Shown in pieces: positions 6,201 through 10,710 of a DNA stretch of 64,000 bases. The translations under genes were made by a program, and so were the position numbers. The notes below the pieces were generated by a model. The model worked only from the letters and a program-made list of their open reading frames with translations, searched no databases and was not told the origin of the DNA. Source of the stretch: a candidate division CSSED10-310 bacterium (GTDB lineage Bacteria > CSSED10-310 > JAFGJC01). The DNA is taken from positions 1-64,000 of the forward strand of contig JAFGLW010000002.1 of the NCBI GenBank assembly GCA_016927905.1. Reading direction: 5' to 3'. How positions within the stretch are numbered: the stretch's first letter is position 1; every line of letters begins with the position of its first letter.

Positions 6201-7045
6201 GCCCGGCGGAGGAAGTCCTGCTGGGTTTCTGGTGCTGGCTGGGTGTGGAACAGAACCAGTATGACAAGGCCATGATCGACATCAGTGTCGATGGCGGGTC
6301 GACCTGGCAGAATATCTGGACAAACGCTGAAACCCTGGACGGCGGATTCTGGCAGTACTGGCAATTCGATCTGACTGCTGCGGCGGCCGGCCAGTCCAAT
6401 GTCCGGTTACGCTGGGGAATGGGTCCGACGGATGTGGGCTGGCAGTACTGCGGCTGGAATCTCGATGATGTGACGGTTGAGGGTGCGGCGGAATGCGGCG
6501 CTCCCACTCCCCCACCTACGGCAACGGTCAATCCGGCGACATACACGCCCGTCCCGACCAATACCCAGCTGCCGACCTACACACCCCATTCCACGCCCGT
6601 TCCGCCCACACACACGCCCGCTCCCCCGACCCACACGCCCGTTCCGCCCACGCATACGCCTGTTCCACCCACCGCCACGCCGGCCTACGAAACCGGAATG
6701 GTGTTGATCCTGGAGGATACCGACCTGATCGCGGGGGATGAGTTTTATCTGCACATGTTCTTATCCAATCGGGAAACTCAGCCCTTGTATCTGGATGCCT
6801 ATATTCTGCTGGACGTTTACGGGAATTTCTGGTGCTGGCCGTCCTGGAGAAGCCTGAACACCGGTCTGGACGGCTCATCCTTTATCCTGAATCCCCTGTC
6901 CACCAGCCACGAGGCTGTTCTCCGGTTTGTCTGGCCCGGAAACGTCGGCAATGCGGACGGTCTCTATTTCTATGGAGTTGCCTGCCATGCCGGCAGTTTC
7001 GACATTGTCGGGCCGGTCAATGCCATCTCATGGCGGTACCGGTAG
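3215..7045 (+). CDS. Secreted gingipain-type (C25 family) cysteine protease with P/T-rich linker and C-terminal accessory domain
   Basis: Signal peptide MNMGKWTFISFVCLAVVLPVQAG after AGGAGGG SD; YVLLVGDSNKLPS...PDIFLGRISV; His motif VQHRDHGEETGW; Cys motif PVVFSINCLTGAF; PPTHTPVPPTHTP linker. Confidence 0.85.
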   Translation: MNMGKWTFISFVCLAVVLPVQAGYFPLIDGSSPGDRVTWVISEDENGISLELRFPGLTVDRIDRDEGLFDRIRVAGCGLTGDEGSPDLPFKGMFLEVPAGVGLMLETESFNEKLIPGRYTVIPRQPPQSDCAGNEPEFTMDPKVYSDDKWVPGAIARIARDGFIRGRRVVFLEIHPVHTSPSEGLLKGYSQIGLRLQYSEIPDTRASERTSRLLSPAFERQAEALIANHHPAQGAGNGESSRDGADYLIITHDDFVLNLMPLADWKLLKGYRTRLVTLTELGGSTATHIKNYLQTAYDTWNPAPTYVLLVGDSNKLPSNTVSPDAYGSPFPSDLPYSMLEGSDYFPDIFLGRISVQTQQQCDVVVNKILEYDRNPEVDNWYNTALIAAYFQDDYSPYCEADRWFFETGTYVMQYLASAQQMSIVTAMCTSASGCSVYHFRSDSYPHRPSHPDPVPQEWIDLITSSSQATSNLINGINAGVGLVQHRDHGEETGWNDPPFFTSHVNSLTNGSRTPVVFSINCLTGAFDYGSDCFAEALQKKDGGGAVGVVAATRVSYSGYNDLLCHGTYTGFFPDYDATHSGNIYADSKRVCEALSFGKYYMYMYEGEGSSTLYTFRLFHWFGDPEMEIRTDTPLAPGIDLPQTIPAGSVQVILPISDEGARVAVTQDGNLLGVGISATGQVVIDLDPPVQGGLPVTVVVTGYNIDPLETDILTGAPSCGIILLDRAGYNCDSDVHVTVMDSDLNTNPGVTEQLVIVVDSSSYPAGIDVTCTETEADNGIFEGVFHTYSFGGSGDLLVAHGDQITAYYHDDDCEGAPADVQKSAGVDCQPPVISNVRVVDVGVDSAVIAWDTSENSESILVYGYSIPPDMTATETGYRTAHEMTLEGLSECMVVYLEVQASDEHGNVGIDNNGGSYYQFTTLQHFVMLSAGMDSDPGWTAEPDWAWGHPTGQGGEHGSPDPAAGYTGLNVCGYNLAGDYPNNMSITRYLTTGSFDCGPAEEVLLGFWCWLGVEQNQYDKAMIDISVDGGSTWQNIWTNAETLDGGFWQYWQFDLTAAAAGQSNVRLRWGMGPTDVGWQYCGWNLDDVTVEGAAECGAPTPPPTATVNPATYTPVPTNTQLPTYTPHSTPVPPTHTPAPPTHTPVPPTHTPVPPTATPAYETGMVLILEDTDLIAGDEFYLHMFLSNRETQPLYLDAYILLDVYGNFWCWPSWRSLNTGLDGSSFILNPLSTSHEAVLRFVWPGNVGNADGLYFYGVACHAGSFDIVGPVNAISWRYR
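6520..6688 (+). repeat. In-frame tandem repeat encoding PPTHTPVPPTHTP linker
   Basis: Repeated cccgttccgcccacacacacg-like units within the C25 protease gene. Confidence 0.8.
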
Positions 7046-8488
7046 ACAGGATTTGAACTTCTCCGGGTAAAAAAGGCAGTCCTGCCGGGTGCACCCGTTT
7101 GCCGGGCAGTACCGGGCAGGCAACCGCCGGCACCAGTCGATTTCAGTGATGCACAGCTCCAGCAGATCATCGAGTGGAATTTTGCTGGGTGTCGCGGTGC
7201 TGGCTTTGGGCGACCCGCAGATCAGCAGATTTTCGGACTGGTGGAGAAACCAGCCGTGTACCGTTCCCAGCCTTCGGAGATCCCGCCTGGAAAGCGATTC
7301 GTTCCGTTCAATGCATTCGGCGATGCGGATCTTGGCGGCCATGTTCCGCATATCGAATCCCTTGAGCGGGCCTCTGCGGTTCAGAATCAGGGAGGTTGCG
7401 CCGGATACCGGGTCGCGGTACACCACCATATCGACCCGCCCCCTGAACCGGGCCGCCTTGATCACCATGCCGTTTTCGGATTGGATGCAGCCGATGCGAA
7501 TGTTCCGGCGCAGGTTCACAAAACGTCCGACCCGGTCAATTTCGTCGAGTGCTTCGATCCATTGGTTTTCACGGGCCAAGATGGCATCGAAACACAGCCG
7601 GAGAGACATCCAGATCCGATCCGGATCCCCATTGAAGAGCGCATGAAATCCGGAGACAAGAGAGGAAAGGGATATCAGGCGGTCCAGGGTATCGGATGAA
7701 AACGCCGTTTCCGGCGTTTCGGCCAAGCGCCGGCTCCACAGCACAAAGTTCTTGAATATCTTTGGCGGGTCATCCGGATTGATTTCCCTCTCCGTAAGAT
7801 ACCGGCCGGCCATTCGAGACAGCAGCTCCGTCATGTCCGCCGGATCGGTATCTTTCCGGGTGATATGGGCATAAACGGCTTCGATCAGCTGCATACCGGC
7901 ATCGAGAATTTTGGCGGAGGAATCGGGGCCATCCCCTGCCAGGATGCTCAGTCCGGTCAGGATGGTTGGAATCGTGGGAAGATGGTGGAGAAAATCAGCA
8001 GACAGGATACCCCGGGCCCGGGTATCGTGCTGGCGGGTGAATTCAATGAGATCTTTCCAGCCCGGGTCGCTGGTCAGACCCAATTCAGATGCGACCAGAT
8101 CCGCTGCACACCGGTTCTTTCGAACGGCACCCCGCCGGGGCGTGACCGGGTGGTTGTCGAACCGGCCGCCGCCGATATCCACCGCCAGGACACCCGAATC
8201 CTCCAAAGACATGCCGTCTTGGGAAGAAGGGCATTCGTTTGCCGGATGGAAGATTACGGGAGCCTTGGAAACCCCCGGAAACAGAGGTTCTCCGAACCGT
8301 TTCAGCAGCAGAACGGACAGAATGGCATCCAGGTCCGGATGCTGGTGGGTGATGATTTGTCTGATCTCCGGCGTCACCCTGTCATTGTATACCGATTCCG
8401 GGTGGTTTTGCGAACCGGTATCGATGAAATGGAGCAGTTGAGGTGGACCATCGGATTGAAATCCTGTAACCTTTACCCCGGTGTGCAA
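7028..8488 (-). CDS. MYG1/DHH-like putative metal-dependent phosphoesterase with C-terminal Cys cluster
   Basis: IITHQHPDLDAILSVLLLKRFG...VLAVDIGGGRFDNHP resembles MYG1/DHH metal-site motifs; C-terminus CPANGCTRQDCLFYPEKFKSCL. Confidence 0.45.
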   Translation of the reverse strand: MHTGVKVTGFQSDGPPQLLHFIDTGSQNHPESVYNDRVTPEIRQIITHQHPDLDAILSVLLLKRFGEPLFPGVSKAPVIFHPANECPSSQDGMSLEDSGVLAVDIGGGRFDNHPVTPRRGAVRKNRCAADLVASELGLTSDPGWKDLIEFTRQHDTRARGILSADFLHHLPTIPTILTGLSILAGDGPDSSAKILDAGMQLIEAVYAHITRKDTDPADMTELLSRMAGRYLTEREINPDDPPKIFKNFVLWSRRLAETPETAFSSDTLDRLISLSSLVSGFHALFNGDPDRIWMSLRLCFDAILARENQWIEALDEIDRVGRFVNLRRNIRIGCIQSENGMVIKAARFRGRVDMVVYRDPVSGATSLILNRRGPLKGFDMRNMAAKIRIAECIERNESLSRRDLRRLGTVHGWFLHQSENLLICGSPKASTATPSKIPLDDLLELCITEIDWCRRLPARYCPANGCTRQDCLFYPEKFKSCLPVPP

Positions 8489-8536
8489 TCAAACCTCTGA
8501 AGAAGGGGTAATTCCACAAGGCAGAGGAGATTTTGT

Positions 8537-9067
8537 ATGAAGTTCTGGCATCTGGCGTTGTTTCTGGGAATTTATTTCGCCCTCCAGTTGTGGGTGCTGC
8601 CCAAGATGGGTGTACCTACCTGAATGTCGGCATCCCGCGGAAGGTCTTCCGCTCTATCCAGCCCGGAGCCCGCAGAGCAGACGGGTATTTTTGTTGCGGA
8701 CTCGGGTATTTCAGTCGAGAAAGGGAAACCGATTCATCTTACCGATACCCAGTTTGAAACGCTCATCAAGACCGAAAAACGTCCGGTCCTTGTGGATTTC
8801 TGGGCTGCATGGTGCGCACCGTGCCGGACCTTGGCACCCACCATTGATGATCTGGCCAGGGAGTATGCCGATACGGCGGTCATCGCCAAGCTGGATACCC
8901 AGAAAAACCGGGCGACACCCACCAGATACAGAATTCAGGGTATCCCGACCATCCTGATATTCCAAGATGGCGAACTCAAGGAGACCATTGTTGGCCTGCG
9001 TCCGAAAGCCGTATACCAGGCCGTCTTGAACAAACTGATTTCTAGAGCGGCGACATCCGAAATTTAA
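8537..9067 (+). CDS. Candidate selenoprotein: TM anchor + UGA(Sec) + thioredoxin domain (conservative annotation would start at 8624)
   Basis: SD AGAGGAG before ATG 8537; MKFWHLALFLGIYFALQLWVLPKMGVPT-UGA(8621-8623)-MSASRGRSS...VLVDFWAAWCAPCR in one frame; no good SD for the internal ATG 8624. Confidence 0.6.
8637..8652 (+). promoter_or_regulatory. Candidate bacterial SECIS hairpin
   Basis: GCGGAA-GGTC-TTCCGC: 6-bp perfect stem with GGUC loop starting 19 nt after the in-frame UGA. Confidence 0.55.
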
Positions 9068-9132: not shown

Positions 9133-10710
9133 GTGATGCCGGAATCATTTCCATCTCCGAAACCCGATCGAACCAGAACAGATATCTTTCTGTTTTTCGG
9201 GATTGCGGTGGCATCGATCGCCATCATCCTGCCGATCCTCATGGTCGATCTTTTGCCGTTTGTCGACTATCCCCTTCACCTGTCTCTTATCGGGATTCTC
9301 CGGGACCTCGATGATCCGGCTGCAAGTGCTGTCCAATATCATGTAAGGTGGTTCACGCCTTATTCGGGTATGTACTGGATTGCAGCATTGATGGTTTCCG
9401 CGGTTCCGATCGAAACCATCGGGAAATTGCTGCTGATTCTGTACATGGTGTTCACGCCGCCTGCGTTCATGGTGTTTCTGCGGGCCACCGGGCAGAATCC
9501 CCGGTACGGTCTTTTGATGTATCCCCTGCTGTATAATTTCAACCTGTCCTGGGGATTCCTTCCATTTCTCATCTCCATGCCGCTCGTTTTTTTGACTCTT
9601 TCCGTAACGGTTGCCGTAGCGCTGCGGAATTCAAAACCCGCAACCGCTGTTCTCCCGGTGCTGCTTATCTTCCTTTTCTTCATGCACCTGTTTGCATTCC
9701 TGGTGACGCTTTTCCTGGTGGCGGTGATCATTTTGTCGGGGACCGGCACATTCCGTCAGAAGTTATGGCTGCTGGTGTGGTTCGGGGCAGCACCGGTTCT
9801 GGTGAACTGGATCTGGTACCGCGGTCTGAGCTATTCCGTTGCGGATCAGGTGTTTTTGTCCAAGAAACTGGTCATTCCTCCGGTTCTTTCCAAGCTGGCA
9901 TTTCTGCCGGAGTATATTCTGAGTGGCGATCCGTTCCGGGGATACGGGGTTGTGCTGGGATCGATGGCTGGAATCATGATCCTGTATTGCATGTTGGACC
10001 GGTTGCGGTCTGAACGGTTGAAATCCGCCGGGTTTCCCGCCGGACTGCGCATCCGCTGGATCGTTCCCGCGGCTGTTCTGGGTGCTTACCTGGCATGCCC
10101 CTATTCATTGCTGACGGCGGTGTGGCTGTTCAACCGGCTGGCATTCCTGGTCCCGGCAACCCTCATCCTGGTTCTCCCGGCAAATCCCCCCAGACGGATG
10201 ATTGCGGATTGTCTTCTGATCCTGATAATCGCGGGATTCGGCCTGTATACGGTACGGTTGTACCTGCTTTTCGAACGGGAAGCAGTCGAAGGGCTGGCAT
10301 GCCTTGAACGGATCGAACCCGGCAAACGGCTTGAAGGCTGTTTCATCGATTCCCGGAGTCGCTATACCGATCACACGGTTTACGATCATTTCGACCAGTA
10401 TTACCAGATCCGGTATGAAGGCGTTGTGCACAATCCGTTTGCAGTGCTGACGCATATGCCTATCCGATATACCGACCCGCATTTCAAGCGGGAAGCTGGA
10501 GTGACGGGATGCAGGGGAAATCCTCCGGGGTGGCGTCTTCCCCGGTTCCGGGAAATCGATTATTTTTTTCTCAGGCAGTATCCCGAAAAAGGCAGCAACC
10601 CGATTCCGTATCTGTTCGGCGACAATCTTTTCGATGTGCGCCAAGCTGTGGTGTCCGGACCCTGGAGTATCTACCAGAAAAAGGATCCAGCCATGGAGAC
10701 CGGTCCATGA
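9133..10710 (+). CDS. Multi-pass membrane protein, possibly glycosyltransferase-like
   Basis: Many hydrophobic segments; C-terminal soluble part; stop overlaps next start (ATGA at 10707). Confidence 0.5.
   Translation: MMPESFPSPKPDRTRTDIFLFFGIAVASIAIILPILMVDLLPFVDYPLHLSLIGILRDLDDPAASAVQYHVRWFTPYSGMYWIAALMVSAVPIETIGKLLLILYMVFTPPAFMVFLRATGQNPRYGLLMYPLLYNFNLSWGFLPFLISMPLVFLTLSVTVAVALRNSKPATAVLPVLLIFLFFMHLFAFLVTLFLVAVIILSGTGTFRQKLWLLVWFGAAPVLVNWIWYRGLSYSVADQVFLSKKLVIPPVLSKLAFLPEYILSGDPFRGYGVVLGSMAGIMILYCMLDRLRSERLKSAGFPAGLRIRWIVPAAVLGAYLACPYSLLTAVWLFNRLAFLVPATLILVLPANPPRRMIADCLLILIIAGFGLYTVRLYLLFEREAVEGLACLERIEPGKRLEGCFIDSRSRYTDHTVYDHFDQYYQIRYEGVVHNPFAVLTHMPIRYTDPHFKREAGVTGCRGNPPGWRLPRFREIDYFFLRQYPEKGSNPIPYLFGDNLFDVRQAVVSGPWSIYQKKDPAMETGP

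Follow-up and report, generated by a model that had tools for sequence, protein, structure and literature searches.

A predicted membrane-anchored selenocysteine-thioredoxin fusion and an apparently new family of selenoprotein microproteins

The gene at positions 8537-9067 of a contig from a candidate division CSSED10-310 bacterium was predicted to encode a membrane-anchored thioredoxin (Trx) with an in-frame UGA codon (8621-8623), whose decoding as selenocysteine (Sec) is strongly supported by comparative genomics, as opposed to biochemistry (no mass spectrometry, no 75Se labelling). Taken as a whole, the explanation that combines Sec decoding, a membrane-anchored thioredoxin fusion and a proposed redox role of the selenol is, in our opinion, very probably correct. 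The N-terminal part of the protein belongs to what is apparently a new family of selenoproteins with an unusual location of Sec, found mostly as stand-alone microproteins; isolated annotations of its members may exist, as the NCBI protein database and subscription papers were not covered.

The gene and its predicted product

In the window (i.e. the whole stretch of 64,000 nucleotides that was analysed), the frame opened by ATG 8537 reads MKFWHLALFLGIYFALQLWVLPKMGVPT, followed by TGA at 8621-8623, and continues in the same frame through MSASRGRSS...DFWAAWCAPCR to the TAA at 9065-9067, with a hydrophobic segment and the sequence LPKMGVPT directly preceding the TGA. The sequence-only reading, which had singled out this gene as a candidate selenoprotein, claimed a strong Shine-Dalgarno sequence for ATG 8537 and no recognisable one for the internal ATG, the loss of the anchor in standard gene calls, and a Sec residue just past the transmembrane helix and outside the WCAPC active site. 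All these details were found to be as described; in particular, no clear Shine-Dalgarno sequence precedes ATG 8624, from which a mechanical ORF caller starts a protein of only 147 aa. The features of the gene are as follows:

8523-8529, + strand: Shine-Dalgarno-like AGAGGAG, 7 nt before ATG 8537 (from the sequence)
8537-9067, + strand: predicted selenoprotein gene (transmembrane helix, Sec, linker, thioredoxin domain; 176 aa including Sec29), from the sequence and from homologues with TGA in the same column
8543-8608, + strand: predicted transmembrane helix, codons 3-24 (AlphaFold2 helix 3-24 with pLDDT ~80; hydrophobicity; net charge in the family indicating N-out/C-in)
8597-8620, + strand: LPxxGhxT motif abutting the Sec codon (P, G and T invariant in 39 aligned members)
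8621-8623, + strand: in-frame TGA, predicted to be read as Sec29 (TGA in 159 of 161 family genes; the sole Cys form, TGT, in a SelA-less genome)
8627-8707, + strand: flexible linker, codons 31-57 (pLDDT <50; poorly conserved)
8637-8652, + strand: SECIS-like hairpin GCGGAA-GGUC-UUCCGC, apical loop 8643-8646, 19 nt from UGA to the loop (conservation, local minimum free energy (MFE) of -8.7, bSECIS model, family tests, covariation)
8732-9028, + strand: thioredoxin domain (PF00085; TIGR01068 above its cut-off; AlphaFold2)
8813-8824, + strand: CAPC redox motif of the thioredoxin domain, Cys93 and Cys96 (sequence and alignment)

Residues 66-164 correspond to the Pfam Thioredoxin family PF00085 (6e-29), and the TIGR01068 score (109.7 bits, cut-off 96.8) together with the presence of the CAPC active site fulfils the criteria for a thioredoxin. 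The AlphaFold2 model (mean pLDDT 77.6) comprises a helix, a disordered linker and the thioredoxin fold, and is silent on any contact between Sec and the thioredoxin domain; membrane anchoring is thus a prediction. No chain similar to the N-terminal segment was found in the PDB.

The source genome (G000; 3.1 Mb, 86.5% complete) encodes the Sec machinery, the absence of which was to have refuted the selenoprotein assignment: we identified selA (E-value 4e-149), a tRNA-Sec (76.8 bits, threshold 47 bits), and selB and selD, both scoring over their cut-offs. The selD product (G000:C25:148819-149751, locus L124) is itself of the Sec type, since its catalytic residue is specified by an in-frame TGA (LTEMSKAAG-U-AGK). 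TGA terminates 28 of the 39 long open frames of the window and hence serves as an ordinary stop in this genome, which indicates that the genetic code is not recoded. Decoding of UGA 8621 by something other than Sec (a suppressor tRNA, insertion of Trp or leaky readthrough) is scarcely credible: we found no evidence in its favor, TGA is used as a stop in the window more often than either of the other stop codons, and the co-occurrence with SelA, the SECIS-like hairpins and the Cys rather than Trp form in a SelA-less genome (see below) all speak against it.

Fused homologues

A search with the full-length protein against 98 relatives yielded convincing alignments across the UGA only in the order to which the window genome belongs. 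Three homologues from independent genera (G001, G003 and G004) exhibit 45-48% protein identity across the UGA, with TGA in the same column, and a fourth, G002, has the same architecture, so that five genomes of the order including G000 encode the transmembrane helix, LPxxGhxT, UGA and thioredoxin in a single frame. When the genome collection was searched with the whole protein as query, most of the matches were to ordinary thioredoxins.

The codon following TGA is ATG in G000 and G001, and CTA, CTT or CTG in G002, G003 and G004. The TGAATG arrangement, and the choice of ATG 8624 by ORF callers, would be compatible with UGA 8621 being a true stop, in which case a 28-residue membrane peptide and a separate thioredoxin would be made by termination-reinitiation. 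We consider this very unlikely, since the CTA, CTT or CTG codons of the other three fused genes, as well as GCN in many stand-alone members of the family, indicate that an ATG is not required there; the invariance of the UGA column and its link to SelA-bearing genomes, the TGT codon in a SelA-less genome, the enrichment of SECIS-like hairpins after the UGA, and the in-frame purifying selection downstream of it, in stand-alone genes too (all described below), also contradict a stop. A related possibility is a selenium-dependent switch, by which one mRNA would yield a membrane-tethered thioredoxin upon Sec insertion and, in the absence of selenium, a soluble thioredoxin through termination at the UGA and reinitiation at ATG 8624. 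TGA does abut ATG in G000 and G001, and the downstream ORF alone encodes a complete thioredoxin; nonetheless, the ATG is not kept in the other three fused genes and ATG 8624 lacks a clear Shine-Dalgarno sequence, hence we deem such a switch improbable, if a little less so than a plain stop.

A family of stand-alone microproteins

The profile of the first 42 residues, run against 386 genomes (set 1, E-value <0.002), matched 41 genomes, and an improved profile matched 121 of 394 further analysed genomes (set 2), of which 118 contained true members. Altogether, ~155 of the ~780 sampled genomes encode the family (161 genes), corresponding to about one fifth of the SelA-bearing genomes in set 1 and a third in set 2. 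Most members are short stand-alone proteins, in which a transmembrane helix ending with LP[KR]hG[VI]xT is followed by UGA and a tail (~28 codons before the UGA and a median of 28 after it). No relative was detected in IMG/VR with a 34-aa profile, and plasmid searches revealed none either; the phylum-wide survey of G065 concerned one genome only.

Conservation upstream of the UGA, whose lack would have counted against the assignment, is evident from the alignment of 39 members, in which P, G, T and U are invariant. At the Sec column, 159 of the 161 genes have TGA, one has CGA and one has TGT, and this retention of TGA in homologues excludes a base error at 8621-8623, also named beforehand as a possible refutation. 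A Cys homologue, regarded in the sequence-only reading as decisive, was found once: the TGT form of G700 (loci L319/L199) occurs in a genome that is 99% complete, yields no SelA match and has no hairpin after the TGT, and it provides a natural control. The CGA (Arg) codon (G252, L163:3162) occurs in a genome with SelA and is one base away from TGA; it may be a sequencing error or a real loss.

SelA was detected in 40 of the 41 member genomes of set 1 as compared to 140 of the 345 others (P-value 1e-13), and in 106 of 116 member genomes of set 2 as compared to 198 of 278 others (P-value 6e-6). Ten set-2 members are found in genomes without detected SelA, most of them incomplete assemblies, but G574 (100% complete) and G500 (95%) are not. 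The set-2 sequences are phylogenetically clustered, therefore the P-values, mainly those for set 2, overstate the independence of the observations.

In 21 close pairs, pN/pS amounts to 0.19 upstream of the UGA and, in frame, to 0.42 downstream of it, compared to 1.23 in the +1 frame. Judging from these substitution patterns, the codons downstream of the UGA are under purifying selection, those of the stand-alone genes included. The tail contains a Cys within 25 residues of Sec in 139 of 159 members, at position U+5 in 77 of them; the U+5 Cys is absent from G001 and from the window protein, which has Arg there. The C-terminal side of the helix carries a net charge of +1.5 and the N-terminal side -0.6, with the C-side more positive in 110 of 133 members and the reverse in 8. 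By the positive-inside rule, this places Sec at the cytoplasmic face of the membrane, in agreement with the match of the fused thioredoxin to TIGR01068, a model of cytosolic thioredoxins.

The SECIS-like hairpin

A hairpin (GCGGAA-GGUC-UUCCGC) is located 14 nt downstream of the UGA, and its 16 nt are identical in four genera; in G002 it is nearly identical (GCGGGA-GGUC-UCCCGC), with one compensatory pair change. The GGUC loop is similar to the loop of the E. coli fdhF SECIS, so decoding by the native E. coli machinery is plausible. The bSECIS model demands a loop of 3-9 nt, a stem of 4-16 bp, G in the first two loop positions, a distance of 16-37 nt from the UGA and an MFE of at most -7.5 (PMC13188914 section 5). 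A SECIS search had been suggested as a check, and the window hairpin meets this model (loop GGUC, 6 bp, 19 nt, -8.7 kcal/mol in the local context, compared to -7.3 for the 16-nt hairpin alone). Its folding energy is by itself unexceptional (z-score 0.07 in a 58-nt window and 0.5 in a 45-nt window) and hence uninformative, so we relied on conservation, position and family-wide tests.

Counting as SECIS-like only hairpins with G in the first two loop positions, we found them after 37 of 41 family UGAs in set 1 as compared to 28 of 228 ORF-terminating TGAs from the same loci (P-value 3e-23), a result replicated in set 2 (107 of 116 versus 62 of 306, P-value 4e-44); for both sets together, the tally is 144 of 157 tested UGAs in the family, as against 90 of 534 UGAs that serve as ordinary stops. 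Moreover, the stem covaries: in 69 dereplicated members, picked by the protein motif UxxxxC only, the mean paired value is 0.79, whereas none of 60 column shuffles exceeded 0.64, and pairing between columns +18 to +22 and columns +28 to +32 is maintained across C-G, G-C and T-A changes. The tests of SelA co-occurrence, hairpin enrichment, covariation and pN/pS address different consequences of Sec decoding and agree with one another, which together with the UGA column and the Cys form in a SelA-less genome lends strong support to the original proposal of a selenoprotein.

Relationship to known selenoproteins

The window protein shares with the Sec-containing thioredoxin (UxxC, PF00085; PMC13188914 Table 1) the thioredoxin fold, Sec and an expected redox role. 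However, in the latter Sec takes the place of the first active-site Cys, whereas in the window protein WCAPC is intact and Sec29 lies outside the fold, at the membrane, 64 residues before Cys93, and thus the UxxC criterion is not met. TsoB (NF045694, a rhodanese/DsbD fusion-like selenoprotein) shows a weak thioredoxin-domain match (38.5 bits) to the window protein; identity with TsoB was rejected, as the curated cut-off is 805 bits and the window protein has no rhodanese/DsbD part, and the Sec motif of TsoB in the catalogue, UxxxxU, differs as well. With TsoA (LULAXC), TsoC, TsoX, TsoY and other small selenoproteins listed in the 2026 catalogue, the family has in common the small size and the presence of Sec.

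Searches of NCBIfam 20 (June 2026) with eight stand-alone members (E-value up to 10) reported only two matches, both to non-Sec families and at chance level, and no selenoprotein model in Pfam matched the stand-alone members (E-value up to 10). The motif LPxxGhxTU is absent from the table of 119 families in the 2026 catalogue (PMC13188914). According to its authors, deep-Sep may miss selenoproteins that lack Cys homologues (PMC12013277); a family with almost no Cys homologues fits this stated blind spot, which would account for its having escaped current finders, and it points to a class of selenoproteins missed by the present discovery strategies. The near absence of Cys counterparts also suggests that the chemistry of the microprotein may truly need selenium.

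Genomic neighborhood and proposed function

Analysis of the genomic neighborhood revealed a gene encoding an FmdB zinc-ribbon protein (PF09723/TIGR02605; a separate, soluble, Cys-rich protein) downstream of the family gene in 46 of 161 loci, in some of them alone and in others behind a thioredoxin gene or a second small Sec protein (see below). FmdB genes number only ~3 per genome, which makes chance adjacency negligible: by our own estimate, fewer than 0.1 cases would be expected in 80 genomes, and ~20 were found among the matches listed. This adjacency provides a selenium/thioredoxin context for FmdB, a protein of unknown function; no FmdB gene adjoins the window gene itself. Literature on FmdB and selenoproteins concerns mostly the FmdB of formylmethanofuran dehydrogenase, a different protein, and otherwise mentions the zinc-ribbon FmdB family only as one predicted selenoprotein family.

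In 11 loci a thioredoxin gene immediately follows the stand-alone gene, with FmdB next, and in G242 only 64 nt separate the Sec codon from the start of a TrxC-like gene, so that thioredoxin is a neighbor in at least 12 loci. With thioredoxin as the next gene elsewhere, the window protein corresponds to a fusion of the first two genes of the thioredoxin-type arrangement; comparison of gene order thus shows it to be a natural fusion of genes that are adjacent in other genomes.

In 17 other loci (L220, L244, L221, L230, L217, L292 and 11 more), another small protein whose frame contains a TGA (CxxC...P[VAL]PTUGxLLWRCxxC...) is encoded after the microprotein and ahead of FmdB, ~140-225 nt beyond the Sec codon of the microprotein. 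It is a sub-threshold relative (18-26 bits, cut-off 40) of the dual CXXC motif small (seleno)protein (NF041197; OS_HP3), which is not related to the transmembrane microprotein.

Based on these associations we lean, if only somewhat, towards the view that the microproteins (transmembrane helix, LPxxGhxTU and a short tail) constitute an undescribed, nearly obligate-Sec family that supplies the membrane part of a widespread selenium-dependent thiol redox module, composed of the transmembrane Sec protein with either thioredoxin and FmdB or the dual-CXXC Sec protein and FmdB. If this is true, the window fusion reveals thioredoxin as a partner of the module.

For the window protein, translation would start at ATG 8537 and UGA 8621-8623 would be read as Sec by SelB and tRNA-Sec, guided by the hairpin at 8637-8652. 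The predicted product spans the membrane once and carries its selenol where the helix reaches the cytoplasm; a flexible stretch of ~35 residues then leads to a thioredoxin domain of the cytosolic type. Its most likely role is that of a cytoplasmic-face selenol exchanging electrons with thioredoxin, though this redox function, the contact with thioredoxin and the direction in which electrons would flow are all inferred. We propose that the selenol acts as a fast redox center that reacts with a membrane-near oxidant or a (per)sulfide/thiol substrate. Its partner in a selenenylsulfide would be a Cys close by (in most members at U+5 or at another tail position) or the CxxC of thioredoxin itself, and thioredoxin, supplied in turn by the thioredoxin reductase pool, would then restore the selenol. 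In the window protein, devoid of the U+5 Cys, the tethered thioredoxin could act directly. A selenol at the membrane face beside a thioredoxin would allow the question of what Sec does that Cys cannot to be tested on a very small system.

It is also possible, though we find it the less persuasive option, that the decoding is right and the role different, with the membrane selenol serving the FmdB zinc ribbon or the second Sec protein as a chaperone or carrier of selenium, persulfide or a metal, and not working as a redox center reduced by thioredoxin. The frequent presence of FmdB downstream agrees with such a function, as do YgaP-like transmembrane proteins (PF11127; 24 matches in 41 genomes, 5 of them within ~1 kb of the Sec gene) and ArsR-type regulators (in seven neighborhoods of family genes). 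However, it is thioredoxin to which the microprotein is fused in five genomes, and which is its neighbor in the loci mentioned above.

In the window itself, the gene is flanked by a divergent ORF of 486 aa (7028-8488, - strand) with no match in Pfam or NCBIfam, which by eye recalls DHH phosphoesterases (ITHQHPDLDAI near its start). Downstream lies an ORF for a predicted membrane protein of 525 aa (9133-10710, + strand), without a match in Pfam, a homologue of which is found at the corresponding position downstream of the fusion gene in G001.
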